Below are positions 41 to 22,500 of a DNA stretch of 22,813 bases, one piece after another. This stretch comes from Beroe ovata (taxonomy: Eukaryota > Ctenophora > Nuda > Beroida > Beroidae), in the NCBI GenBank assembly GCA_946803715.1, contig CAMPET010000034.1:4481-27293 (forward strand), in the 5' to 3' direction. Position 1 is the first letter of the stretch; each line of letters starts with the position of its first letter. A program made the translations under genes and the position numbers. The notes under the pieces were generated by a model that was not told the DNA's origin, did not search any database, and saw nothing but the letters and a program-made list of their open reading frames with translations.

Positions 41-136
41 GTGATAGAGTCAGTTGTCACTCAGAACTTAGTCACCACTATCGGACTGATGGTAACAGCG
101 ATCTTAACTCTTCTTCGTATGAGAGATCTTACCAAG
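41..136 (+). CDS. Membrane-protein penultimate exon, copy 1
   Basis: A 96-nt phase-0 exon of 32 codons. It follows a good acceptor (ttttgcgtcag) and ends at the strong donor CCAAG|gtgagt. It encodes a hydrophobic stretch (LVTTIGLMVTAILTLL) followed by the basic RMRDLTK, as expected for a last membrane helix and the start of a cytosolic tail. It joins in phase to the tail exon at 381-476. The gene's earlier exons lie left of the window, so the family cannot be named. The exon and about 75 bases after it are identical to copy 2 at 898-993. A second reading frame is also open across this stretch, but it is broken by a stop in copy 2, which favours the frame given here. Confidence 0.5.
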
Positions 137-380
137 GTGAGTGTTCCGACTTCCATCCTTCATATTCCATGTTCGATTATGCCGGAAGAAGTATCGAAGT
201 GGTTGAGTCAGATTTCATGGAACGCGCGGGAAGCATCGGACATTTTTATGGACGCTTCGCGCGCACGTACGTTTATTTTGAAGAATTTGTGGATTGGTCG
301 ACGAATTGCGCGCCAAGTGTAGGAAAATTGTTTCGCGCCAGCGGCAAAGTTCGTATCTATAATCATGGTCTCTTCTCCAG

Positions 381-476
381 GTTATTGTGAGACGACAACG
401 GGTACGTTATCTACAAAACAGGTTGAGTTTCTTCAGTTTTTGTACCTGCTGTGCACCCGATGAAGATGATTATTGA
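381..476 (+). CDS. Membrane-protein terminal exon with stop, copy 1
   Basis: A terminal exon of 31 codons plus TGA, following the acceptor ctcttctccag. The tail begins VIVRRQR, then has a hydrophobic/Cys patch (SFFSFCTCC) and ends in acidic DEDDY. The paired cysteines next to a membrane segment could be palmitoylated, which is an inference. Against copy 2 there are four substitutions: three synonymous (GTG/GTC, TAT/TAC, GCA/GCG) and one Val/Ile. That pattern suggests the frame is, or recently was, under selection. A canonical AATAAA lies 120 bases past the stop. Protein family not recognised. Confidence 0.55.
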   Translation, partial: VIVRRQRVRYLQNRLSFFSFCTCCAPDEDDY

Positions 477-595
477 GAACAGTGATATATAGGGCTCGAA
501 TCGATTCTCTATTTTGTGGGAGTGAGGGGTTTCAAAGCCAGATAAGAATCTGATTGATTGATTGATAACCCACAGTGGGGCTGGCAATGTGCCGA

Positions 596-2213: not shown

Positions 2214-5200
2214 CTGAACGAACTTTGGATTTATTAATTCTTCAATCGGGAATGAATACAGCCAAGCCGTGTAACATAACAATACCAAACTCTAGGTTTG
2301 ATGGACAAAATCCTGATCCCAGTTTCTGAGGCCCAACCTTAAATTTCCGAGTACAATAATTAATTAATTAATTGCCCTCTTCCCCCCATTTTAGCACATA
2401 CCTTTGCATCATGATATCGGGGTTAGAGTCCCTGAGGAGGGCATTGACTTGATAACTTGCGGAGGGATGGTTAGGACGACCAGTCGTGGTTGCAACCTGC
2501 AACTAGAGTTGTCAATCGTTAATAACAACTTGTTGCAGAGTTGTTAGCGGTGAGATTATGCGTCCATATGTTATTACACTTATGGAGTTATGGTATGGCC
2601 TATGTCAATATGATTGTAAAGCATACCTATTCGTAATGACTGATTCGTAACGATTAGTGTGCTGCAGATTGCAACCACAATTTCGTTCATTTTATTACCG
2701 CCGTATAGCTGTTGCACCAACAAATGCTAAATTATTATCAAATCAGCTCTTTTCATACAGAATAATTGCATGTTGGACGCTAACCGCAATTAATTCTGTA
2801 ATATACCCCTAATTTGTTACGTCATTAGACGACCTGGAATTTCCATCAGACGTGGGATCAATAGGGTTTGGAATCTTCTAGATTTATCTATCCTGTGAAA
2901 TTCTACCCAATCCTTTAAGTCATGAATGTAGATGATAACTTGTTTGACGGTTCATAACTAAACGGTTTTCGTGAAACGGTTTTCGTGAAACTAAACGGTT
3001 TTCGTGAAGATGAACAATTGATTTTAGCCACCTTGTAAGCAGGCTCGAGTAATCTCTTTCGATCCTCGAGAGAGGGATGGGTGTGGGTTGCTCCTGGCTG
3101 TGGGAATGGAGACATTCCTGAAACGAATGAACGGTTAAAAATGAGAATTGTTTCAGTTGAAAAGATTTTGAATTGGGAAGTTTTTTCGGAGAAATTGTAA
3201 AAAAAGTATACGTCTCGCATGAAGCGCTCTTATGCATTATGTTGTTGTAAATTCAATGGTATGAATTTATTCTTTTACCAGACATATGTTGCATAATTCA
3301 ACGAAGATCATAGCATATGCTAACTCATTTAAATTATTAAATTGAATGATAATCACTCTATATTCCGATTTAAGCCTCATCACCTTAATTAACTAATTTC
3401 CCTTCAAACAGCTTAGATATGGCATGGTCCAAAAACCTCGCAACAAATATCAAGGAAGTATTGAAGAACCCATCGAAAGGTGAGAACTTTTCGATAACTT
3501 TTTCCCTAGATTACATTATCGTAAGATGAAATGCCTCGGAGGTATAGCATAAATGCAAATTGTTCGGCATCATTTCCTGTCATTTTGGCAGACAATCGGG
3601 CTAGATTTTGACAGACACAACTTCCACAACCGGTTGCGTGCGTCTGACAGTAATTTTTAAACTGTGTTTATTATAGAACCCATTTGTCTCAGTACGGTTT
3701 TTAAAATTTGGAAGTTTTAAAATTACCGAGTTTATTGCCCGTGAATAATGGGTTCAAGTCATCATATTGCATATTGCATATCGTGGTTGATTTTAAAACA
3801 TTTTTAAAATTAACCCACCCCATTGAGAGATTGAATCATCCTACTTAGCATATTTGAGGGCCGAACCTACCCTTTATTTTGAAACAGTGATATCATTCAG
3901 CACCCCAATTAGTTAAAAAATTGGACCAAAAGATAATTCCCACGCTCCACACATGACACGCAATGGGCGTAAGCGGGAACAACAATTTCACCTGCAGTTT
4001 TTTCACGAAATTCATGCCGCGTGTGTATGTTTCTCACTAAATTTAATTTAGTTGGATTTTAACGCCCTCCCTCCCCCTCAATAATGAGAAACAGCTGCTC
4101 ATGGGGTTTAATATAATATCGAAATAATATATATATTTTCCATGCGTAGGTATAGGTACATGAGCCTTGTGCACAGGATGTTAAAAAGAGTGGTTTACGC
4201 ATGAGGTGAAGAACATGGTTTATTTTCATCTGGAATATCCACTCACTCCCTCAAGGCAGGTGATAGATTATCAGACAGTCACGTGATCGCAGGGTTGAGG
4301 TCACGTGATTTACTGACAGATTCGGTTATCTGGTGTGACGTGTGTGTGTTACGTGCGTGTGTAGGTGGTTTTTGACATGCTGTGAGTTGTGAACTGAGAT
4401 AAGCTTCCAGCGGAATTGAGTATGGAAATTTTCAGCAAAAAACTTAGGTACTGAACATCTCAAATTCGAGACGCTGTACGACACTGCGACATTCTAAATA
4501 AATTACATTCCCTCCCATCTGAACGTTATCCATGTATCTCACTACAATAAGTATTAACTACAGTAAGTATAAACTTTGCCCTAACCAGCTCCACCACAAC
4601 AAAAGTTTAAAACCAACCTGGATAGTTGATGTATCGGGGGTCCATGCCCTGTCTGAGACAGTCGTATGGGGGCCACGCCCCTCTTGTATCCTGCTGGAGG
4701 TACCCGTACCCCACGTGCACTCCCTGAGCGTCGGATGAGGGCGGCGATGTCCGGAGTCTCTTCACTGGGGGAGCAGAGAGGGGAGTGAGCTTTGATAAAA
4801 CCGTATTTATGCGGGGGTGGGTTGAGTGAAGCGGACACTGTTATTGATTTTTCCGTGGAGTAAACATGAACTTAAGAGTTTAACTGCATCAATCTTAATA
4901 CATCTTCAGGTTGAAATTATTGAGAAATTTTAGGCGTTAGATATTACGAATTGTCGGGCGTATACCCAATGACTGGACAGAAATACCGGACCACCCTTTA
5001 AATTAGAGAGAGGGAGGCGTGAAAATTGCACGATTCACTTGAAACATTGATAACAGCGATAAGTAGGTACTCAGGTTTTAAAATTAGCGTTCTCCTTTTT
5101 AAAATCGAGCCTCATTCCTATATACTGAGTTGTGCATCACGAGGTGATAAGTATTCTCTTGACTCAATTAATTTGAGTCAAAGGAATTCAACTCAAATGA

Positions 5201-8200
5201 AGACTTAGAAGCGAGTGATAACAATGATATAAATTGATGTCAACGTCATGATATGGTTATCCATCAACATCTTTTGAAATTTCAATCCATCGTAGAGATT
5301 TGACCCTGGATATTTGATAGAACTTTTGTGTTTTCCATGTCATCAAGATTTTCAGATCCAACAATTGCCAGGTACTGAAAGTTGGATATGAAATTGTCAT
5401 TTGAATTGGGAAAATTATAGGTTTGAAAATTAAGACTTATCGCGCCTCACTCAACGATAGCAGAGCCGTATTTCCGTTACTGAAAAGTGTGACTGCAATA
5501 TATTATGTCGTTGCAAGCTTTTTTTCTAACATTAGAACATGTGACCAACTGTTAAAGACATAAATTCTTGATTGCTTCCTGATAATGAAGCACAAGTTTC
5601 CATCACATATATTTCAATTTGTTTCAGGTGCCCTGTAGAATAATGCCTGATAACGGGTGTTAAACAGCCACGTGGAGAATCAGTGTGGAATCTGCCAGTA
5701 TCAGGATTAACTTCTGTCTAACAAGATTGAGGTATGTCTGTCTTGTTGGACTGAGTCTAAACTTGGGACTAAGTCTAAATACTTGTGGGAAGTCTGACTC
5801 TGAGGGGAAGTCTCACACACTGCGCACGAGCAGGGAATGTTAAACATGGGCTAAATTATCATATGCTTTTGCCCTAACTTCTTTATGAAGTCATCTGGGA
5901 AACTCTGGGTGTCATTTATCATACAGCCACAATATCTGGAAAGCTTCAAACAACCAAATTGATTTATGAAGACGAAATTTCTTCTACACAATTAAGAAGT
6001 AGGAGACTCAAAATTCTTTTTCCAAGCATAGGTTATCTAAACGCCAGTTTTCGTCACTGCTAGAGTTCCAAATATCGCGGAAACTCTCCTTATAACTGCT
6101 AAAAGCTCCCGAAAATTGCCAGTTATCCACCACCACTCAGTTACTAGTCAGGAGCTGTGTAATATAGCTCGTGAAGAAGTAGCGGTAAAGCACTGATAAC
6201 ATTTCACACTTGACCAACTTTGATGCTAAACCCGGATATTAAAGTGATGATTGCCCTCATTGAGTGTTGGAAGCCACCAAACTGGAGTATATAACAGCTT
6301 CACCAAGTGTATGATATTATATAGATCTAAATTTGCGGAAAAAATTGTTGAAAATGTCGGCTACCACCTCTGAAAACCGAGATTGCTTTCGGAGGTTTCT
6401 CTCCCTTTTTGAGTGCGAATAAAAAGGTGTTGCTGAGATGATGAGGTGACAAGATAGGTCACATGTTGGACGAACGCAAATATAGTGATCCTCATGTGCC
6501 CTAGATATCAAAACACGATATCAGCCCGAAGCTTACAGTAAACTTCAATTAACCACAACGAACTTGAAACTATACATGCAACTACAGAAAGTCGCCCCAA
6601 GTTTCGAACACATTTTAAAGATATTTCCTTGTGTTCACACACATGTCTCACCTGGCCTGTCGTAGCTGGTCGTATCGGGGGTCTGAGGGTCGGTGTCGAA
6701 TGTTTCGTGGTACTCTGGTTTGATGGCCGTGGAGCACATGACGGGCGTTGTACTGGAACAACTACTGTCAGCCTGGCATGGTTGTCATGGTTACTATTAC
6801 GGTCGTCATGGTTACCATTATTTTGATGATCATCAGAGTTGTCATGGATATGGGAACTGGATGTCATTTTTTATGGCGAGACTTCTTTTATTATACGTCA
6901 GAATTGAGATTGGGAAGTTTTTTGGATCATGAAATTGAACATTTCCTGTGTTTGTGAAATTGCAAACGTTAACTAATTGAGCAGGAAGCAGGTCTCACAT
7001 AATAATATGTTGGAAGGAGTACACTCCTATACTTTAAACAGCCGGGAGTATTTTAAAATTAGCTGTGGCCACAGAATATGCTACACGCCCACATTTCGAT
7101 CATATCATAGAATGTGAGTGTGTGCGGTCAGTGCTAATTTTAAATTTAAATATATTCATTTTAAAACACTCACTCATATCAAAACATCGCCCTATACTTT
7201 AAAATTTTGAGCCCTATACATTTCGCCGTTTTTAAACCAGGGTCATCTTGCGAATTGCAACTTTGCTTTCGGTCCCCTCCTATCAACGTCTAACTTTTTG
7301 AAGTTAGTTCAAGACGTTTTTTGACATTTCCGCGTTAGTTTTTTGCGGGAATTCATTAACAAGTTTTTATGTTTAAAACACATCATAAAATATTATGATG
7401 ATGACTGAATTTTAAAGTTTCGTGTGTTTATATAACTGTCTGGGAGTTGCGATGTCAGTAGTTTTGACACACTGTGTTTTTCGTGTGCTAGAACTCTTAA
7501 TTGTATCGCTCGCATTTTATCATTTTGGAAGTTAAATAATAAATTCGATTGTCCTTCAAGACGGAAAAGGGAGAAAGGGAAGAGAAACGAGCTACTCTCA
7601 TATATCGCACTAGTACCATCAAGTTGTTGGATTGTTGTCGCTTGAGGGCCGACAGTTTCCGTTCATTGGCCATGGTCTGTGCCATACTCTTATTCCTCAT
7701 CTGGGTTGCCGAGCACAGGTCACAGAGACAGTGTTCGTACGGACACGAGCCCTTATGGCCGATTCTGTAGTTTGTCTGCGAGAGAGAGAGATGAGGACTG
7801 GAGATGAGGACTGGGGATGAGGACTAGGGATGAGGACTGGGAGAGAAGAAGTGAGGGCGGATGGGAGTGGGGAAAGACTGGATCGATGGAATGATGAGTG
7901 GAGGACAGGGGGACAGCTGTAGTGGAGGTTGAGGAAGCTGCATTAACAAATGAGGAAAGGAGGATTGATGGTTTTGCTTCACCACAGTACTCAGAGATAC
8001 GAGTTCTGCTTCACCACAGTACTGAGAGACACGAGTTCTGCTTCACCACAGCACTGAGGGGCACAAGTTCTGCTTCACCACAGTACTGCACCTCACACAG
8101 GATGACGATAGAGTGGGAGTTCTAAATGAGGATAGCTGCACGTAACTGCAAGAGAGCTGCACGTGACCGAGGGCTGCACGACGCACGTGCATCAGACCAC

Positions 8201-11200
8201 CGCACGTGCATCAGACCACCGTGTAAAGGGGGAGAAGAGTGATGGAAGAGTGCAATTAGTGGCACTCATTGCACTCTCCTAGGAGCCCTCTACTGAGAGT
8301 GCCGATACCGCTGACTAGAATTCGGGTTGGGATAGAATGAGAGGTCTGAAGGTGCTGTAAAAGTAAAACAATGCTTTTGTAGAGTTTCATTTCGGTTTTT
8401 GTGTGTTTCCCTTCTTTTTGGCCGTGATTTTGTTTGATAAATCGCTCATGGTGCACGTGCGACGGGTTAGATTGTAACGCGCGTTTGTCTGTGTAGCGTG
8501 ACTTTTTTAGAGGATTACGATTTCATCTCCCAAAGGTTTTGATTAAACTATATCAACGAGTTCCTTCTTGGAGTTAATCATAAAGGAGTACCTGCTAAGG
8601 TAAAATCGTAATAACTCCCCGTCGTGGAATAATTAGGACTTACTTCCGCGAATCCCATCGCATTGACCTTTGGGATTGTAGACTTCCGTTCATTAGACAT
8701 GCACTTGGCCATGCTCTCATTCCTCATTTTGATAGCATGGCACTGAGCACACTTGCAGTTCAAGTACTCGCAGTGCTGTGAGTGACCCTTCCGAAACATA
8801 ATCTGAAACATGGGGGCGCTGTTGTTTGGGATGCCACATCGCCACACGGAGGGCACATGGCATCTCAAACATGGCATCGGGCATTTCTAGTATTATTATG
8901 TGGTTATTGGGTTCGGCACGGTGCTACATTGGGCTTGGGTGAGGTTCAAGGATCTGTGCTTTGAGGTAGAATCAAGCGGAAACACGTGCTTCATTTGTAT
9001 CTGATGATTTCATCCATGGTCATTAAGATGTTGAATGAGTCGCTGTTAACCAATAAGCATATGTTATGATTGTCAATGTGCTCTTTATAAAACTGATGAT
9101 TTAAATTCAGATGATGGAAATATCTCGACTATTGTCGGCAGGGATGAAAGACATGTGGGATGATAAATTAATGTGGTGATATGAGTGTGCGTGAGTTAGA
9201 GGTACATGTGATGATTACAATCATCAAATAATCATATTAGTTGGTTGAGAAACTCAATTTTCCCTTTAGTTATTCAAATTGATAATGCAAGCAGGAAAAA
9301 AAAGCCCAACATAATAGGAAATATTTGGAAAAATGTAACAGAAAACCCCGCCCATGTTCGATCGATTCAGCACCAAAAAAGGATCGAGAATACGATTTAT
9401 GAAAAACTGATGCTTACCTTGCCATGATTTTTGCATCTGGCACACGTTGGTTTGCTCTTGGATGTTGCTTTGGTTGCTTTTTGAGGAACTGCGTCTTTGG
9501 TTAGCATCGTTGTTGCTGATAGTTGAGGAACGCCGATTTTATCTGGAGATGAAAAGCTGTGTTTTAGAATGATGTTTCATTTATAAGGCTGAATAAATCA
9601 TTCATAACGTCAATAAACCCAAAGTTTTTAGGCTCGCAGCTTAGATCCTCGAAGAAGCACGCTTGATTTTTAAAACTCAGTGCTCTAACCCTATCTCTGA
9701 TATAATAACAGGGATGTTGCGTATTTCCCCATCACATCTAACCGCACATATAGACACAAGATTACATTTCACATAATTTTGATACTCAACGAAAAGTGGG
9801 GAATTTTAAAAAAGGTCATTGTTTAACTTTAGATTCCTAAAATAACACTCACCCATTATTATACTACAATTAATTTTGTGCCTTTTTAAACTCTATTTCT
9901 AGATATGATTGTATCAATGAACTTTCTGGAGCGTTCACAGAAAAAATAAATATTACACGCGGAAGGGGCAAAAACCGACAACACAAACAAATGCTGGAGT
10001 AGAAAGAGGGGAGCCGTTATGCTCGTCACGGCTTGGGACCGACTATTGGACCGCCAGAAGGGAGTAAATGCAATAAGCTACGTGGTATATTCGAAACTTA
10101 CACCGTATTGTATGTAACAACATATACGTGCGTTTGTGTGAGTGTGTGAGTGTGTGTGAGTGTGTGAGCCAATGGTAGACAGGGTGGCGATGGTTCTGGC
10201 CAATGAGAGCTCAGGAGGTCGATAGTTGTGAATCAAGCTGTAATTTTTGCATTTTTGGTCGAGTAGGTACCGCGCGTTTGCTTGGATATATGTTTTTCCA
10301 TGTGCGGGATTGTTCATCATTCACGATGTACTAATCGCTGCTGGGGCAATCTAATTAAGGGTGAATTTCACACAAAGCATTCCAATTATCATGCGAGGGA
10401 ATGTCCTAATTAGGTTGAAAAAGAATTGCCCGGAAATCCTCTTCATTGATTTCAATGCTTGACCCCTTTTTACAGGTATGAAATTAGATTAACATATACT
10501 TTGCACAAATTCCTTGTTTTTTACTGCTTTTGAGGACGGTAGGGGTTGCCTAGGAACATTACTTTGGAAAATTACAAACAAAAGTCGCTCTGGAACTTTC
10601 TAAAATCCTGCCACATCTGTGAAACCCACACAGACAGACACACAAACATACACAAACATACACACACGCACACACACATACACACACACATACACACAAA
10701 AACACACACACACACACAGCAGTTCAATGGCGACGTGGTACACGGTCGGAACTGGTTTGAGTTTAGGACGACATACCCGTGTATTAATAGCAATGTTTGA
10801 CAAGCAGTAGAGGGGGACTGAGGAGGGAAGAGATTTGCGTGATAGAGAGTGAGTATTTTGTGTGATCGAATAAAGAACTTGTGTGATAGGGTTAGCAGAA
10901 CTAGGTTTGAGATGGACGAGATTATTGAAGATGTTTGGGAGAAATTGTGGTTGACTGATAGATGATCATCAGTTATACGACTCCCCGTGTTATTTGATTA
11001 TCATATCATAGAGCAACATCCAGTAATATTACGGAACTTTGTAACAATTCATTGTTTATTTTAAAGACTTTAAGGTGTTTGAAACCACAGTAGCAACAGC
11101 AGCAACAGCAGCAACACAGACAGAACTTGTTTTAAACACAAGGAAATATATTAAGAGAAGATTAAAACAATCATTACGCTGTCTACGCTCTGTTAAAAAC

Positions 11201-14163
11201 CTTCCACTTATCCAAGTTATGTATGTTGTGGTTGTATTATGAAACTGGTTTAAAACTTCTCACAATGATAATGATCATAAACTGGGGGTGTTGAGGGGTT
11301 GATAGTTGAAGGGTGTTGATTGTAGACGATGACGGAATGACATTGTAACATGACGTTTGAAGCAGCAAGTGATTCAAAGTGATTCGGGTTTGTGTGAACT
11401 ATCATAAGGTTTTACAAGTGTGGAAAGCGCTGTATACATATGATGGGGACAATTCTGTGGTTTTCCCCTGACCCTACTGGTACTATGTCCTGATCCCTTC
11501 TGGTCCTTCTATATTAGTGAAATGTTATGGTTTTTTCGTGATAATTGGTTACAAAATGGAAATTGCTATGATAAGTATGTGTGAGAGAGAGTATGTTGTT
11601 AGTTGGTTCATCCCCCAATTTTATACTCATGTCCTCCCAAATTGTGGACTGATAACACACACTGCACCATTGACAATGTTGTACACATGTTGCGACAATG
11701 TAAGGGTGTTATAATTGGTTAAGTGGTGTCAAGTGCCCGCACCGGTATTTCCCCCCTCCTTATCTTGCCACCCTGTGAAAGTTCCAGACTGTGACAATGG
11801 GAAATCGAGTAGATGAAATATGTGGAATATATTATGAGACAGTTCTAGATGGGTAGCCTGACGATTGTGGTTTTGAGTTTTTGAACCTGAAAGGCGTGAA
11901 AAATCGGGTGAGTTTTGGTTTCTCAAAGTCCGAGAAGATAGATTTTTGAACGGGGTCTGTGTGTGTTTAGGTGATGATTTCGGAGGGTTAATCACTGAAT
12001 GTTCACCTTTTATACGGCTTTTTTCTGTCATGATAATAAGATAATGACACGATATGTGACAAAATTTGAGGAGAAAACTTGTGAATTATGCCCCCGCGGG
12101 TAAATTTAGAATTCCGATTTTTGGATATTGGTCCTCTGTTCAAAATGCATCAATTTCAACAAACCATGTTCGTAAGCACGGAAAGTGTTGAGCAGTGAGC
12201 TATAAATTACATTGTCTGAATCGGCGATTGATTGACCATCAACTTTTTTGCAGGAATTGTTACTACTTTTTCTGCAAAACAACAAGCATTTTCCATGTAT
12301 AATTGTGGTCGTGTGAACTTAACATTGTAAAAATTCATGGAATCATTATTATCAGAAAATAATCCCTACTATTGATGGTTTTGGTCGGCGTTAGCGTTGT
12401 TATGACCCAATATTTTATCAGTGTATCCCAATACTTGAACTAACTAGTATTTTGAGTGTGTACTGCGTGTGTGTACTGCGTGTGTGTACTGCGTGTGTGT
12501 GTGTGGGCAGTGTGTGTGTGTGTGTGTGGGCAGTGTGTTGAAATCCTGTGGAGACATGAAGTGTGGCGGAACACATCAGAGCAGGAAATCTGTCAATTCA
12601 GAGGTCCGGTAGAAAACTGTTTAGATAGCGTGCTACATGGTCAACCAAGCGGAACAAAGGCTTTAACTTCCTGTGCGTGTCTGTGTATGTTTGTGTTTCT
12701 GACGTCTGTGAGTGTCTGTGTTTGTGCTTGTATGTCTGTGTGTCTTTGTGCGCTGTCCTGTCTCAAAGGTCTGTTGCTGTCTAGTGCGAGGGTCTGTTGC
12801 TATGGCACGACTGATAGTGTTGCTATAGCAACAATATACCTGGTCGTTCGCCTACTATGAGGATGATGACTCCCAAATTTTGGTTCATCAAAAACACAGA
12901 AAGGTATGTAATAGGTACTGGTGCTATAAAATATGAATTTGATATGAGGATACCATTTTAAAAAGTTTCAAGTATCCCGTGCACACCCATATCAATACTC
13001 ATGAACTTGGCACTTTTTATGCCATATTAATCACATCGTTTCAAACCTCCTATAAAGGTTGTCAGTACGCTATAGTGCAGTGTTTTAAACTGTGTCGGAA
13101 TAGCGGTTCCGGTTAACTGTTCGGGAGCAACCAAACGTGAAGTGTGGTCGTGTTGTTGTGGTCGTGTTGTCATGGTAACGCACCAGATAGTGAGAGGTGT
13201 CGGACATCCACACTTGGAAACTCCACCGAGTCACCGTATGCTGCTCGGTTTTGTGTCGCCATGGTTGCATTCACCGGATTCGCTGTGCGAGACTGCGCCG
13301 ACTTCACGGCGCCAGGATAGGACATAGGTTCGGCTTTGGAGACTCACGGAGAGCACACACACACACACAGACACGCACACACACACACACACACAAACCT
13401 ACACGCACAATCTTCTTCTGATTGATTAGAGTAAGTGGGATGGTTTTGAACCATGGTCGTCACGCTTCGGACTTGTTTTAATCTCATCCCGTATTTATTA
13501 AATAAAATTGATGAAGCAATTAATTAACACTCAGTCCACGTCCCAATGTTCAAATGGTTTGAGATGGTTCAAACTGAAATAACCACGCAGATTGAGCTTC
13601 GTAGATGGTTCGAAAGCATCAGTTTGGCTATGTAGAAGTAAAATCAAGAAAAATGAATATTGCAATCGTTTATTGTTGAGTTGGTACCCCAAGACAGTCT
13701 ATGGTACTTCTTGAATTCTTGAGAGCGAATATTGCCTCGATTAAGAAAGGTTCAAATTTTGGGTTTCGAATTTTGTGACTTCATCTTTTTTAGGTTTCGG
13801 GCAAGTTTTTCTTCGATTGCTCTAGATAAAATTCTTATTAGCCTACCGGTATTCGGTAAACTGGTTGCCTCATTGAAGATAATGAGATGCAAGCTGCAAA
13901 CATTGATGGGAATTTCATTTTTCCAGTATTTTTGCGGAGCTGCTCTAAGCCAATGAACATGACTTCATGTCAACAAGCTGCGAACCTATAAAACTTTACT
14001 TAAAATCACAAATAAAGACATCCGCATTGTTATAAACGGAGCTATGCACTGTGTTAACTCAAATTTGTTGTTATAGTTTTGATTTAAACTGCTTTTTATT
14101 AAACTCACCTATAAGAAGTGCGGGCGAGATTGTCGAATCGTCGTTTCCAAGCAACCCTGACAT
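2159..14163 (-). CDS. DM-domain (DMRT family) transcription factor, whole gene
   Basis: Joined coding exons in transcript order are 14109-14163, 9418-9542, then 8668-8802 and/or 7617-7775, then 6652-6772, 4618-4764, 3032-3117, 2402-2496 and 2159-2213. All junctions match in phase. The product is 272 aa with exon 3a, 280 aa with 3b, or 325 aa with both. The DM domain binds DNA in the minor groove through two intertwined zinc sites (CCHC and HCCC); family members control sexual differentiation and other developmental choices in animals. PTCARCKNHG comes from exon 2, and GH-x3-C-x4-C-x-C-x2-C comes from either exon 3, exactly matching Doublesex spacing. The recognition tail is divergent (KMRNESMAK or QMRNKSMAQ where RQRVMA is usual). 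No DMA or DMB motif was recognised, so the subfamily is not assigned. Confidence 0.85.
2402..2496 (-). CDS. DM gene exon 7
   Basis: The exon is phase 0 in and phase 2 out, with acceptor caactctagttgcag and donor GCAAAG|gtatgt. It encodes VATTTGRPNHPSASYQVNAL and then LRDSNPDIMMQ. The frame is open throughout and joins in phase to exon 6 and exon 8. Confidence 0.8.
2960..3009. repeat. Short tandem repeat, AAACGGTTTTCGTG unit
   Basis: Three near-identical copies of a 14-base unit, the last separated by a few bases, lie in DM intron 6. On the minus strand the retained-intron frame reads this as a repeated RKPFS peptide. Confidence 0.85.
3032..3117 (-). CDS. DM gene exon 6
   Basis: The exon is phase 1 in and phase 0 out, with an excellent acceptor (accgttcattcgtttcag). 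It encodes GMSPFPQPGATHTHPSLEDR and then KRLLEPAYK. The donor ACAAG|gtggct is poor. Reading through it continues 38 more codons to a stop at 2915-2917, so intron retention could give an alternative C-terminus. Confidence 0.8.
4280..4307. promoter_or_regulatory. Pair of CACGTG E-boxes
   Basis: Two copies of TCACGTGAT (CACGTG at 4280-4285 and 4302-4307), 22 bases apart, lie in DM intron 5. They are candidate bHLH-zip sites and nothing more is visible. Confidence 0.4.
4618..4764 (-). CDS. DM gene exon 5
   Basis: The exon is phase 1 in and phase 1 out, with a strong acceptor (ctctctgctcccccag) and donor ATCCAG|gttggt. It encodes VKRLRTSPPSSDAQG, then the Tyr/Gly/Pro-rich VGYGYLQQDTRGAWPPYDC and MDPRYINYP. 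The basic start (KRLR) next to SP sites may be part of a nuclear-localisation and phosphorylation region (inference). Confidence 0.85.
6652..6772 (-). CDS. DM gene exon 4
   Basis: The exon is phase 0 in and phase 1 out, with donor GGCCAG|gtgaga. It encodes a Ser/Thr/Pro-rich segment beginning ADSSCSSTTPVMCSTAIKPE and ending TTSYDRP. IKPE matches the SUMO-acceptor consensus (hydrophobic-Lys-x-Glu), which is suggestive only. The acceptor is unusual: atgccag with no pyrimidine tract, sitting inside a GTTGTCATGG-type tandem repeat. The left boundary is fixed by an in-frame TGA a few codons upstream and by phase. Confidence 0.75.
6773..6855. repeat. GTTGTCATGGTTAC-type tandem repeat upstream of DM exon 4
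   Basis: Repeats of (G)TTGTCATGGTTAC and diverged variants flank exon 4 on its acceptor side. On the minus strand they read GTAACCATGACAAC and replace the pyrimidine tract expected before a 3' splice site. Confidence 0.6.
7617..7775 (-). CDS. DM gene exon 3b: second half of the DM domain, version B
   Basis: A 53-codon exon, phase 0 at both ends, with a strong CT-rich acceptor (ctctctctcgcag) and donor TTGATG|gtacta. It encodes TNYRIGHKGSCPYEHCLCDLC and then the tail SATQMRNKSMAQTMANERK, extended by LSALKRQQSNNLM. All zinc ligands are kept at canonical spacing. It differs from 3a in the loop between zinc ligands, at several positions of the recognition tail, and by its longer C-terminal extension. 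Splicing exon 2 to either 3a or 3b gives a complete DM domain. Including both gives one domain followed by a second half-domain. Confidence 0.88.
7790..7845. repeat. Minisatellite, GATGAGGACTGGG unit
   Basis: About four copies of a 13-14 base unit lie 15 bases from the acceptor of DM exon 3b, just beyond its CT tract. Confidence 0.85.
7974..8090. repeat. 32-bp minisatellite between DM exons 3a and 3b
   Basis: Four starts of GCTTCACCACAG occur at exactly 32-base spacing (7976, 8008, 8040, 8072), with minor divergence between units. It lies in the intron separating the two alternative DM half-exons. Confidence 0.9.
8182..8219. repeat. Two 19-bp direct repeats with E-boxes
   Basis: CGCACGTGCATCAGACCAC occurs twice head to tail. 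Each copy contains a CACGTG inside the 8-base palindrome GCACGTGC. Another CACGTG precedes the pair at 8160-8165. All lie in the intron between exons 3a and 3b. Confidence 0.9.
8668..8802 (-). CDS. DM gene exon 3a: second half of the DM domain, version A
   Basis: A 45-codon exon, phase 0 at both ends, acceptor ccatgtttcag and donor CCAAAG|gtcaat. It encodes IMFRKGHSQHCEYLNCKCAQC followed by the tail HAIKMRNESMAKCMSNERK. His, Cys, Cys, Cys, Cys fall at exactly the spacing of Doublesex. Joined to exon 2, the distance between the two zinc histidines (HGKIMFRKGH, nine residues) is also exact. About 21 of 45 positions match exon 3b. The acceptor has a weak pyrimidine tract compared with 3b. Confidence 0.88.
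9418..9542 (-). CDS. DM gene exon 2: first half of the DM domain
   Basis: The exon follows acceptor cttttcatctccag and ends GGCAAG|gtaagc in phase 0. It encodes a Thr/Lys-rich lead (TKATSKSKP) and then TCARCKNHGK, the canonical start of a DM domain. This supplies two cysteines of zinc site 1 and the first histidine of site 2. The domain is interrupted exactly two residues after that histidine, so the rest must come from a downstream exon. An in-frame ATG lies inside the exon (encoding MLTKDAV) and could serve as an alternative start. Confidence 0.9.
10626..10718. repeat. (CA)n-rich microsatellite
   Basis: Interrupted ACACAC / CATACA runs. Overlapping open frames encode only His-Thr or Cys-Val repeats. 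Confidence 0.95.
12451..12540. repeat. (TG)n-rich microsatellite
   Basis: Begins with three copies of GTGTGTACTGC and continues as interrupted TG runs with GGGCAG breaks. The overlapping 134-aa open frame is repeat-driven. Confidence 0.9.
12819..12832. promoter_or_regulatory. X-box-like (RFX) motif
   Basis: GTTGCTATAGCAAC fits the RFX X-box pattern (RYYNYY, 2-base spacer, RRNRAC) and forms a near-perfect palindrome. It lies in DM intron 1. Confidence 0.4.
13166..13179. promoter_or_regulatory. X-box-like (RFX) motif
   Basis: GTTGTCATGGTAAC fits the X-box pattern. It lies about 930 bases inside intron 1 from DM exon 1. Confidence 0.4.
13353..13403. repeat. (CA)n microsatellite
   Basis: ACACAC run with GACACGC interruptions. 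Confidence 0.95.
14109..14163 (-). CDS. DM gene exon 1 (start codon)
   Basis: The first coding exon begins MSGLLGNDDSTISPALLI and ends at the consensus donor ATAG|gtgagt in phase 1, which fits the phase of exon 2. The start was chosen because it is the only ATG near an excellent phase-1 donor upstream of exon 2, and the E-box cluster lies just upstream. The intron to exon 2 is 4,566 nt, the longest in the gene. Confidence 0.65.
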
Positions 14164-19500: not shown

Positions 19501-22500
19501 GTAGGTACCTAACTAAAGACAAATATTCTTTTCAGATGGATATAATTTGTATGCAATCTAAGATGAGAAGCATTTCTGAAGTGTTATGGAATTTGGCAAG
19601 ACTAGGTGTTAAAATATGACCCTTCATAACAATGTGTGAAAGTCTGGTTGCTGTGGAAACAGAATAATTAAACATATATACTGATAAGAGATTATTCATG
19701 CCACTTCTCGTCTTGTCTTACACTTGTTTTGTTTCACCACAGCACCCTGCTTTGCCTTCCTTCCTTCCATATACAACATCACAAAAGGATAGAGCTATTT
19801 CATTCAAAGAATTGAGTTTGAAGACGTCAGAATATTTCAGAGTTTTCCTGAGTGTTCAGCAAAGCGACAGTCAAAGAGAAAAGCAGTCAGATTTAGGTCT
19901 CAAAGCTTAGACAACACTTCAAAACCAAAGGTTGGATGAATTTCTACATTCTTAGAGAAAGCTTCCACTCAAACTATTCTCATAAACTTCTTCCTGTATG
20001 GTGAAAATTTTCGCTATTAATTGAAATATGTCACAGGAGGATCCATTGTCACTCCTTAAAGCAGTTCTTGGAATGAGGCCAGAAAATTCTAGTTTCTCAG
20101 ATGTGATAGACAAGATACAGCAGGTGAATAGATATTCTGCAATCTGCTGGAAGTTTTTGCAGCTGCTTTTAAATATTTGGTTGTTGAGTTTGCTCCTTGA
20201 AATTACTGATCATACTTTCTTTCCGTATTCAATTTGAAATTGCGTCAATCAGTTCAAGTGTGTCGGTCTGTGTGAAGGGGCACACACACTAAGTGAAACT
20301 TAATCCCGATATATTGAAGAGTAGAATAGATGTTTCGGTAGTGGAGTGAAACTCAATCATTCCAATTTGAATTGGTTGTCAGGCATGGATCATGTTGCAA
20401 TGCCGTTAGGTAGAAGCAGTTATTAATGGTAGGATTCCAACTCCTCGTTTCTAGATTTTAGTTACCTTCCTCGTAATGTATAAAAAAGTAATTTCTAAGC
20501 TGTATCAATAAAATACCTCAGCTCCAAGACAGGCTGGTATCACAAAGGTGCATCACAAGCAAGAAATCCTACGAAATAGAGACCCTCAAGTGTAGGTTGG
20601 AGTCAACTGGTCATGAAATAGAATGTCTGAAGATCGAAAACAGGAAGCATGTGCTGAGAACAAAAGCGTTCGATGCAGAGGTCAGTGACAGACATGAGAC
20701 AATATCCCGCTTGTCCTCACCCATATATCTATTCCATATAAGGAATAACCTCTCTCTCTTCTGCTCTAGATGCTGCGGATCGGATCTCGGAGAAAGCAAC
20801 AACGGGACGCTCTGCGGAGTGCCAGTCTCCCAGCAACGCTGGGTCGCAGATTTCCTGATATGGTGGTGGAAACCAGACAGCCGAGTCTGGCGTCAAACAG
20901 TCTGAAGAGTGCTAGCTGGGATAGTGTTGGTGCTAAAGAGAAGGTAAGCTGGAAATGTCTTGGGATGTGAGTTGCTTGATTGAGGTTGCTTGATTGAGGT
21001 TCAAGTTGACCTATATATTCTATGGTATAATACGCGTTTTACGTAATACGCATTGCATTGGGTACCTCTCATGATAACTTTGCAACTCCCTTCTTCTGTT
21101 ACAGTTGGACAGTGAGAAGAGGCCGAGTTATCTTTCCGAAGTTATATCGGAAGATTTCGATTACACCAGTGATTTCGAGACGACACTACAAGACATCGGC
21201 CTGGAAGATAACAAATACCTCAAACAGAAAGTCCAGGTCTGTGGTATAGCCACTCTTAGTGTGGGTTGTGAGATTTTCGATACCTTTAATTAACAGTTTT
21301 ATAGAGTTTAATAAATAAGTTGCGAGAATTAGTAACTTCTTGGGTAGGCACCTAATCTCCCCCTGCCCGGGCTCGTGTCCAATCTCCATAATGAATCCTG
21401 ATAAATCAGATTATCCTGCATTCTCCACCAGTAAATAATAACCGGGCGCTGGGCAGGTGGCTCTGGGGTGTCTCACCCCATATTATGTAAATCCAACTCC
21501 TAGTATTGCGAACTTGGCAACATTGTTGCTATGGTAACAACCAATGGAGGCATCAATCCCCGTATAATATAATACTGATAGATGTAATTTAGTTAATGTT
21601 TTCGTCGCTACTTCCGATACTGTTTCGATGTTTAATTCTCCAATTATCACGCTGGTATACTCCAGGTATTACACGTTAATCGTAATAACCGCCGGAATAA
21701 GGAATTTAGCCTTGTACGAGATGAGTGATGAGAAACACAAATGATGTAAACTGGATCTTCTTTTTTCAGATATTGGAGCGATTGTTGAAGGAGTCGACAA
21801 ATCTTCATTCGCAGTCGGGGGAGTTTGAACTTATGTCACAAGATGGGTGAGTGGTGTCAGGAGGGAAGTGGTGTCAGGGTAGAGTAGTGTCAGGAAGAAA
21901 GTGGTGTCAGGATATAGTAGTGTCAAGGGGGAAATGGTGTCAGTGGAAAGTGGTGTCAAGGGGGAACTGGTGCCAGTGTAAAGTGGTGTCAAGGGAGTGG
22001 GGTCGATGAGGAGTGGCGCAAGGGTGGGGTCGTCGAGAAGTGGTGTCAAGGTAAATGGTATCTGCGAGGAGTGGTGTCAAGGTCAAGTGGTGACTATTCC
22101 TACTCCTCGCCAGAGAATGCATTTCACGAACTGACGTGGATAGGCTGAGGCGGGAATATGATAAACTGCTACGAGAAAATGCGAAGCTTCTATCGGAGAG
22201 GTTTGTTTTGTACCTTCCTTCTTATTCTTGAATTCATCCGATCCAATGAAAAGAGATATAGGGTCAATTTTATGGATAAATGTGCTATTGAGATCGACTT
22301 TGATTCTGGATCATGCTCCTTCATCAATACTTCGTTTCAGATTGGACATATCTTCTGAAATGGATCAACTCAACAGCGCTAATGTCCAACTGAAAAGGGA
22401 GATAGAGCAGTTTGAGATAAAGGTTCGGATTGATTGAGTTTTTTCGATAGATTCACTACTGATTCTATTGATCAGTTATTGATAAGTCCTCAATTAGTAA

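Follow-up and report, generated by a model that had tools for sequence, protein, structure and literature searches.

A ctenophore Dmrt gene whose duplicated second-half DM exons are very probably used alternatively to make two transcription factors

Can one gene encode two transcription factors by exchanging part of its DNA-binding domain through splicing? This question is raised by a 22,813-nucleotide (nt) stretch of the Beroe ovata genome (contig C34, CAMPET010000034.1, positions 4481-27293 of a 77.8-Mb genome), referred to here as the window. Its minus strand carries a complete Dmrt coding sequence of nine coding exons (14163-2159, a span of about 12 kb), in which the DM domain begun in exon 2 can be completed by either of the two exons that follow, 3b and 3a. 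Every junction has GT/AG, and a frame of 280 codons (280 residues) is open with either 3a or 3b. We conclude that this is very probably a ctenophore Dmrt gene in which duplicated exons for the second half of the DM domain are used alternatively, giving two transcription factors.

Exon 2 (9418-9542, minus strand) encodes the opening part of the DM domain, common to both forms and bearing three zinc ligands (C, C and H), and ends CARCKNHGK/gtaagc, two residues after the CARCKNH motif, as an earlier sequence-only reading of this DNA had reported. Downstream on the same strand lie exon 3b (8644-8802; IMFRKGHSQHCEYLNCKCAQCHAIKMRNESMAKCMSNERKSTIPKVNAMGFAE; tttcag/ATT...GAA/gtaagt) and exon 3a (7617-7775; TNYRIGHKGSCPYEHCLCDLCSATQMRNKSMAQTMANERKLSALKRQQSNNLM; tcgcag/ACA...ATG/gtacta), each 159 nt long and, again in agreement with that reading, in phase 0 at both ends. 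The five-ligand pattern H-x3-C-x4-C-x-C-x2-C that had been ascribed to both exons is indeed present in each of them, and a six-frame scan of the window found no other match; the same scan found CxxCxxH once outside exon 2 (10609, plus strand), in an unrelated context. With C-x2-C-x2-H from exon 2 and five ligands from 3a or 3b, all eight zinc ligands fall at Doublesex (DSX) spacing, and the spliced domain aligns with DSX without gaps whichever exon is used. Of their 53 residues the two exons have 21 in common, every one inside the first 45, which agrees with the previous estimate of about 21 in 45. Their last eight residues are unalike, consistent with the claim of differing recognition tails, whereas the extension once attributed to 3b alone was an error, because the exons are equal in length.

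Genome-wide searches recovered each exon with the other as query (3a at E=2.8e-7 with 3b, 3b at E=3.6e-7 with 3a), and on these sequence statistics the similarity of the two exceeds chance. Both spliced forms are recognized as DM proteins, scoring 52.8 bits with 3a and 50.7 bits with 3b against the Pfam DM model (cut-off 27). Sequence matches in the PDB were DSX (E 5e-8) and DMRT1 (E 9.1e-8) for the 3a protein, and DSX (E 2.8e-8) and DMRT1 (E 1.4e-8) for the 3b protein.

Relatives of the gene were sought in three protein searches. The search with the 3a isoform gave eight proteins (from 144 candidates, E up to 1), among which the named matches were isoforms X5, X8 and X4 of Bolinopsis microptera LOC134814161; the search with the 3b isoform returned seven of the same eight and nothing new, and an alignment-based search added one protein, P0010. 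The Bolinopsis gene resembles the window gene in both its exon choice and its tail: X5 has 3a alone, and X4 and X8 have 3b alone. It differs in carrying in-frame segments beyond the window model (MHFSGAHSK in X4, X5 and X8; SSF in X4) and in a 3b that is one residue shorter. Between the window and Bolinopsis, 3a is identical at 53/53 residues, 3b at 43/53 and the shared tail at 131/185 aligned columns, gaps counted. Exon 3b also has a counterpart in P0007, a EukProt protein whose "sb" label we take to denote Pleurobrachia, in which 3b is directly joined to 3a and the first residues are MFQ. Because this MFQ start matches what is, in the window, the acceptor of 3b (atgtttcag), P0007 looks like a gene-prediction product. 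Other matches have 3a only. P0002 (90% identical) and P0003 (81%) look like spliced complementary DNA (cDNA) in which 3a follows exon 2 directly, since their source sequences (at most 1256 and 1282 bases) are too short for a gene of about 12 kb; P0008 and P0009 are each 52% identical. P0010, a P0008-like frame of that distant lineage, lies on a 134-kb contig; its 3a is apparently split by an extra intron (RATK / ARNKSM).

The exon pair is thus kept in three lineages, that of the window, Bolinopsis and P0007, and all six aligned exon copies, the 3b copies of all three among them, have the full set of five ligands. The identity between 3a and 3b is about equal within each lineage (21/53, 22/53 and 21/56), so these alignments fit a duplication that predates the split of the three; by this comparison, the pair dates back at least to that split. 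As both exons have been kept since then, both are probably used.

Contrary to the previous suggestion that no DM gene of this kind had been described, the arrangement is already in the literature. Reitzel, Pang and Martindale (2016; PMC4971632) describe Mnemiopsis leidyi as having five Dmrt genes, one of which, MlDmrtB, has ten exons and two isoforms: A lacks exon 3 and B lacks exon 4. The first ligands lie in exon 2, and the DM domain is completed by exon 4 or exon 3, just as the first ligands of the window gene lie in exon 2 and the rest come from either of the next two exons; MlDmrtB differs in having ten exons against nine coding exons here. According to the same text, a transcript with all ten exons was absent from the products of rapid amplification of cDNA ends (RACE) and from the assembled transcripts, and the isoforms have common start and stop codons with isoform-specific 3' untranslated regions (PMC4971632). 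Matched by this published description and the exon plan, the window gene is most likely the MlDmrtB orthologue. Alternative second-half DM exons were therefore published in 2016, and the window, in adding another species, extends a known finding rather than making a new one; what is added here is the conservation of the pair in three lineages, with five ligands in every copy seen. Another Mnemiopsis gene, MlDmrtA, likewise has an intron inside the DM domain and a domain altered by splicing; there, skipping of a single exon removes the DM domain, whereas in the window gene it is exchanged (PMC4971632).

We postulate that the exon for the second DM part was duplicated in tandem long ago, giving two phase-matched exons, and that the spliceosome would join exon 2 to either 3b or 3a, and then to exon 4. 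The two predicted products would have in common the N-terminus, the first three zinc ligands and the C-terminal tail. Where they would differ is the remainder of the zinc module, a portion of the recognition helix and the tail of that helix. Obtaining two transcription factors from one gene through a spliced exchange within the DNA-binding domain is unusual. Alternative splicing of a DM gene is familiar from insect doublesex (dsx), where the C-terminal region is alternative and the DM domain is common to the products; the window gene, which is like dsx in having its products set by alternative splicing, would exchange the DM domain itself. Sex-specific dsx splicing is also mentioned in the Mnemiopsis paper (PMC4971632).

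Several points weigh against this reading. The names of the Bolinopsis sequences ("isoform X") presumably mark computed NCBI models. Exon 3b occurs in three of the eight homologues (P0005, P0006 and P0007), from two lineages, while five of the eight have only 3a, and one of the three 3b carriers, P0007, is a gene model with 3b running straight into 3a. The match to MlDmrtB was made on description and exon plan and not on letters. The mutually exclusive use proposed by the sequence-only reading is supported by the three Bolinopsis isoforms and by the Mnemiopsis RACE and assembled transcripts, each with one exon per transcript, though not by the window species itself: that species was read from its DNA alone, and we infer that it splices as its relatives do. 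Finally, the Mnemiopsis authors expect their isoforms to bind divergent motifs (PMC4971632), a view that differs from the expectation developed below.

The alternative that survives best is cassette splicing, in which 3b and 3a would be included together to give a full DM module followed by a second H-C-C-C-C half module. Double inclusion stays in frame because both exons are 159 nt long and in phase 0, and so the one-and-a-half-module form foreseen by the sequence-only reading could be made; its only instance is P0007, which does join 3b straight to 3a, but whose MFQ start lies in acceptor sequence and points to a product of gene prediction. The all-exon form is absent from the Mnemiopsis sequencing and assembled transcripts (PMC4971632), and our three protein searches returned no double form from Bolinopsis, although clustering at 90% identity could hide one. 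We consider cassette splicing quite unlikely.

A second alternative is that 3b is a decaying or non-functional duplicate, rarely spliced, with 3a the sole functional exon. The faster change of 3b between the window and Bolinopsis would fit this, as would the restriction of P0002, P0003, P0008 and P0009 to 3a. The 3b tail, STIPK, should also stop the recognition helix early, and the AlphaFold2 models do end the helix at residue 97 with 3b and at residue 109 with 3a, at low confidence; these models, built from seven sequences each, were poor overall (mean predicted local distance difference test scores of 42.8 for P0005, with 3b, and 45.3 for P0004, with 3a). Against decay, 3b has kept its frame and all five ligands in three lineages, and 3b isoforms are annotated in Bolinopsis and were cloned in Mnemiopsis (PMC4971632), making this alternative very unlikely. 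The last, that an internal promoter would start 3b at the ATG just upstream (MFQIMFRKGH...) to make an inhibitor lacking the first ligands, draws on the in-frame atgtttcag immediately before 3b in the window, at which P0007 begins, but those letters are in fact the splice acceptor, the Bolinopsis 3b isoforms have the N-terminus and exon 2, and both Mnemiopsis isoforms have the same start and stop codons (PMC4971632), and we dismiss it as extremely unlikely.

If, as we conclude, the two exons are alternatives, how might their proteins differ on DNA? In DMRT1, R111 sits at AE-R-QR according to a printed repair template (PMC9713387), and by residue counting DMRT1 R123 corresponds to DSX R91. Exon residues R27 and R39 align with R111 and R123 and are invariant in all six exon sequences aligned. 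At the R113 position, in turn, all three 3a copies have K where the three 3b copies have E or D, which reverses the charge, and after NERK the window 3a reads LSALKRQQ, whereas the 3b of both the window and Bolinopsis reads STIPK. Vertebrate DM proteins with differing recognition helices pick similar sites, and some are able to heterodimerise, according to Murphy et al. (2007; PMC1931443). Given those similar sites and the retention of the R111 and R123 equivalents, we expect a common core DM site with differing flank preference, affinity or dimer partner rather than two unrelated specificities, and grossly different core motifs for the 3a and 3b proteins seem less likely than had been supposed. 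In either case, the two exons provide a natural pair for asking which DM residues set DNA specificity.

What would keep the two exons apart in a transcript? Exclusion through a frameshift and subsequent mRNA decay was rejected on the length and phase of 3a and 3b, and judged from the sequence, enforcement by frame is not to be expected. The 3b-3a intron (7776-8643, minus strand) is 868 nt long, which is too long for simple steric exclusion and makes that mechanism unlikely. The splice sites are unequal in opposite directions: 3b has the donor GTAAGT and an acceptor tract with 57% pyrimidines, and 3a has the donor GTACTA and a tract with 83%. This pattern is compatible with a choice made by a regulator. 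Candidate docking and selector stems were compared with shuffled sequences for three intron pairs, of which i2-i3 consists of the exon 2-3b and 3b-3a introns. The best ungapped stem was reached by 85 (i2-i3), 9 (i2-i4) and 97 (i3-i4) of 100 shuffles, and no discrete pairing element between flanking introns stood clearly above shuffles in the three pairs. The duplex energy of whole introns was reached by 0 of 60 shuffles for i2-i3, one of the three pairs tested, and by 56 and 53 for i2-i4 and i3-i4.

The 3b-3a intron also contains three short, minisatellite-like tandem arrays (7788-7840, 7971-8088 and 8182-8221) with units of 13, 32 and 19 bp. The 13-bp array lies directly upstream of the 3a acceptor, 12 nt from 3a, and is pyrimidine-rich on the gene strand; the window has similar tandem arrays in other places.

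The choice between 3a and 3b might serve as a regulated DM switch, for instance one that distinguishes cell types within the comb rows or within the neighbouring male and female gonads, although we think this unlikely. MlDmrtB is expressed in comb rows, where the probe could not separate the isoforms, and almost all ctenophores are called hermaphroditic, both according to the Mnemiopsis study (PMC4971632). Were such a switch to exist, splicing would retarget one factor by swapping some of the zinc module and the charge on the recognition helix, and a lineage near the base of the animals would have a splicing-based DM switch independent of insect doublesex.

The origin of the duplicate was considered among the paralogues. 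The genome of the window species gave six DM matches at five loci, because the window gene gives two. Apart from themselves, the 3b query matched 3a and the C212 and C2 loci, and the 3a query matched C212, 3b, C14 and C2. A genome search with E up to 10, in which the best candidates were scored and stretches reading N, including much of the C3, C2 and C14 loci, were invisible, gave no third copy of the 3a/3b exon. Read by eye, the DM domains of C212 and C2 are also interrupted by an intron, of phase 2 and lying a few codons further along, and C3 has none within the domain; the first half of C14 was not found, much of that stretch reading N. The C212 Dmrt gene, which is the nearest paralogue of 3a, has CAKCRNHG and RLGHKGCCQYEECECELCKQTKTRNDAMAKTMANERR on separate exons. 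Exon 3a is identical to it at 61% of 38 residues, compared with 49% of 41 for 3a and 3b, and no duplicated exon was seen at C212, where the 17 kb retrieved gave a single second-half match. A tree built from 13 short sequences of DM second halves united the three copies of 3b (100/98). The nodes placing 3b relative to 3a, P0008 and C212 were weak (36.4/62 to 62.7/78), giving little support to either origin for 3b, descent from 3a or an origin predating the divergence of C212.

The remaining coding exons, all on the minus strand, are common to both forms. The coding part of exon 1 (14109-14163; MSGLLGNDDSTISPALLI plus G, donor GTGAGT) joins exon 2 as G/AT; it was assigned as the top match to the P0002 N-terminus (score 43, the runner-up among the N-termini tried scoring 25), its end and phase being taken from the printed sequence. 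The shared tail comprises exon 4 (6652-6772), placed by protein alignment with P0002-P0009, exon 5 (4618-4764), exon 6 (3032-3117), exon 7 (2402-2496) and exon 8 (2159-2213, ending in the stop TAG), with exons 5, 6 and 8 placed by protein alignment with relatives. Exon 7 has a second candidate acceptor 6 nt upstream (2402-2502; ctctag/ttgcag). The longer form would add two residues (LQ), comparable to Bolinopsis X5 (YKLQV) and P0002 (YKFQV), and the shorter is found in X4, X8 and P0003, so that, from these sequences, the acceptor choice looks like a small conserved splicing choice.

Two features of the window lie outside the gene. Positions 1-1406 hold two head-to-tail copies of a unit of about 857 bp (300 nt at 99% and 191 nt at 94%), and a genome search with window positions 60-540 found those two copies alone; the repeat either arose by recent duplication in place or is an artefact of assembly. 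On the plus strand, the open frame at 20492-20905, of 137 residues, has, by eye, the look of a coiled coil and is possibly an exon of a neighbouring gene.

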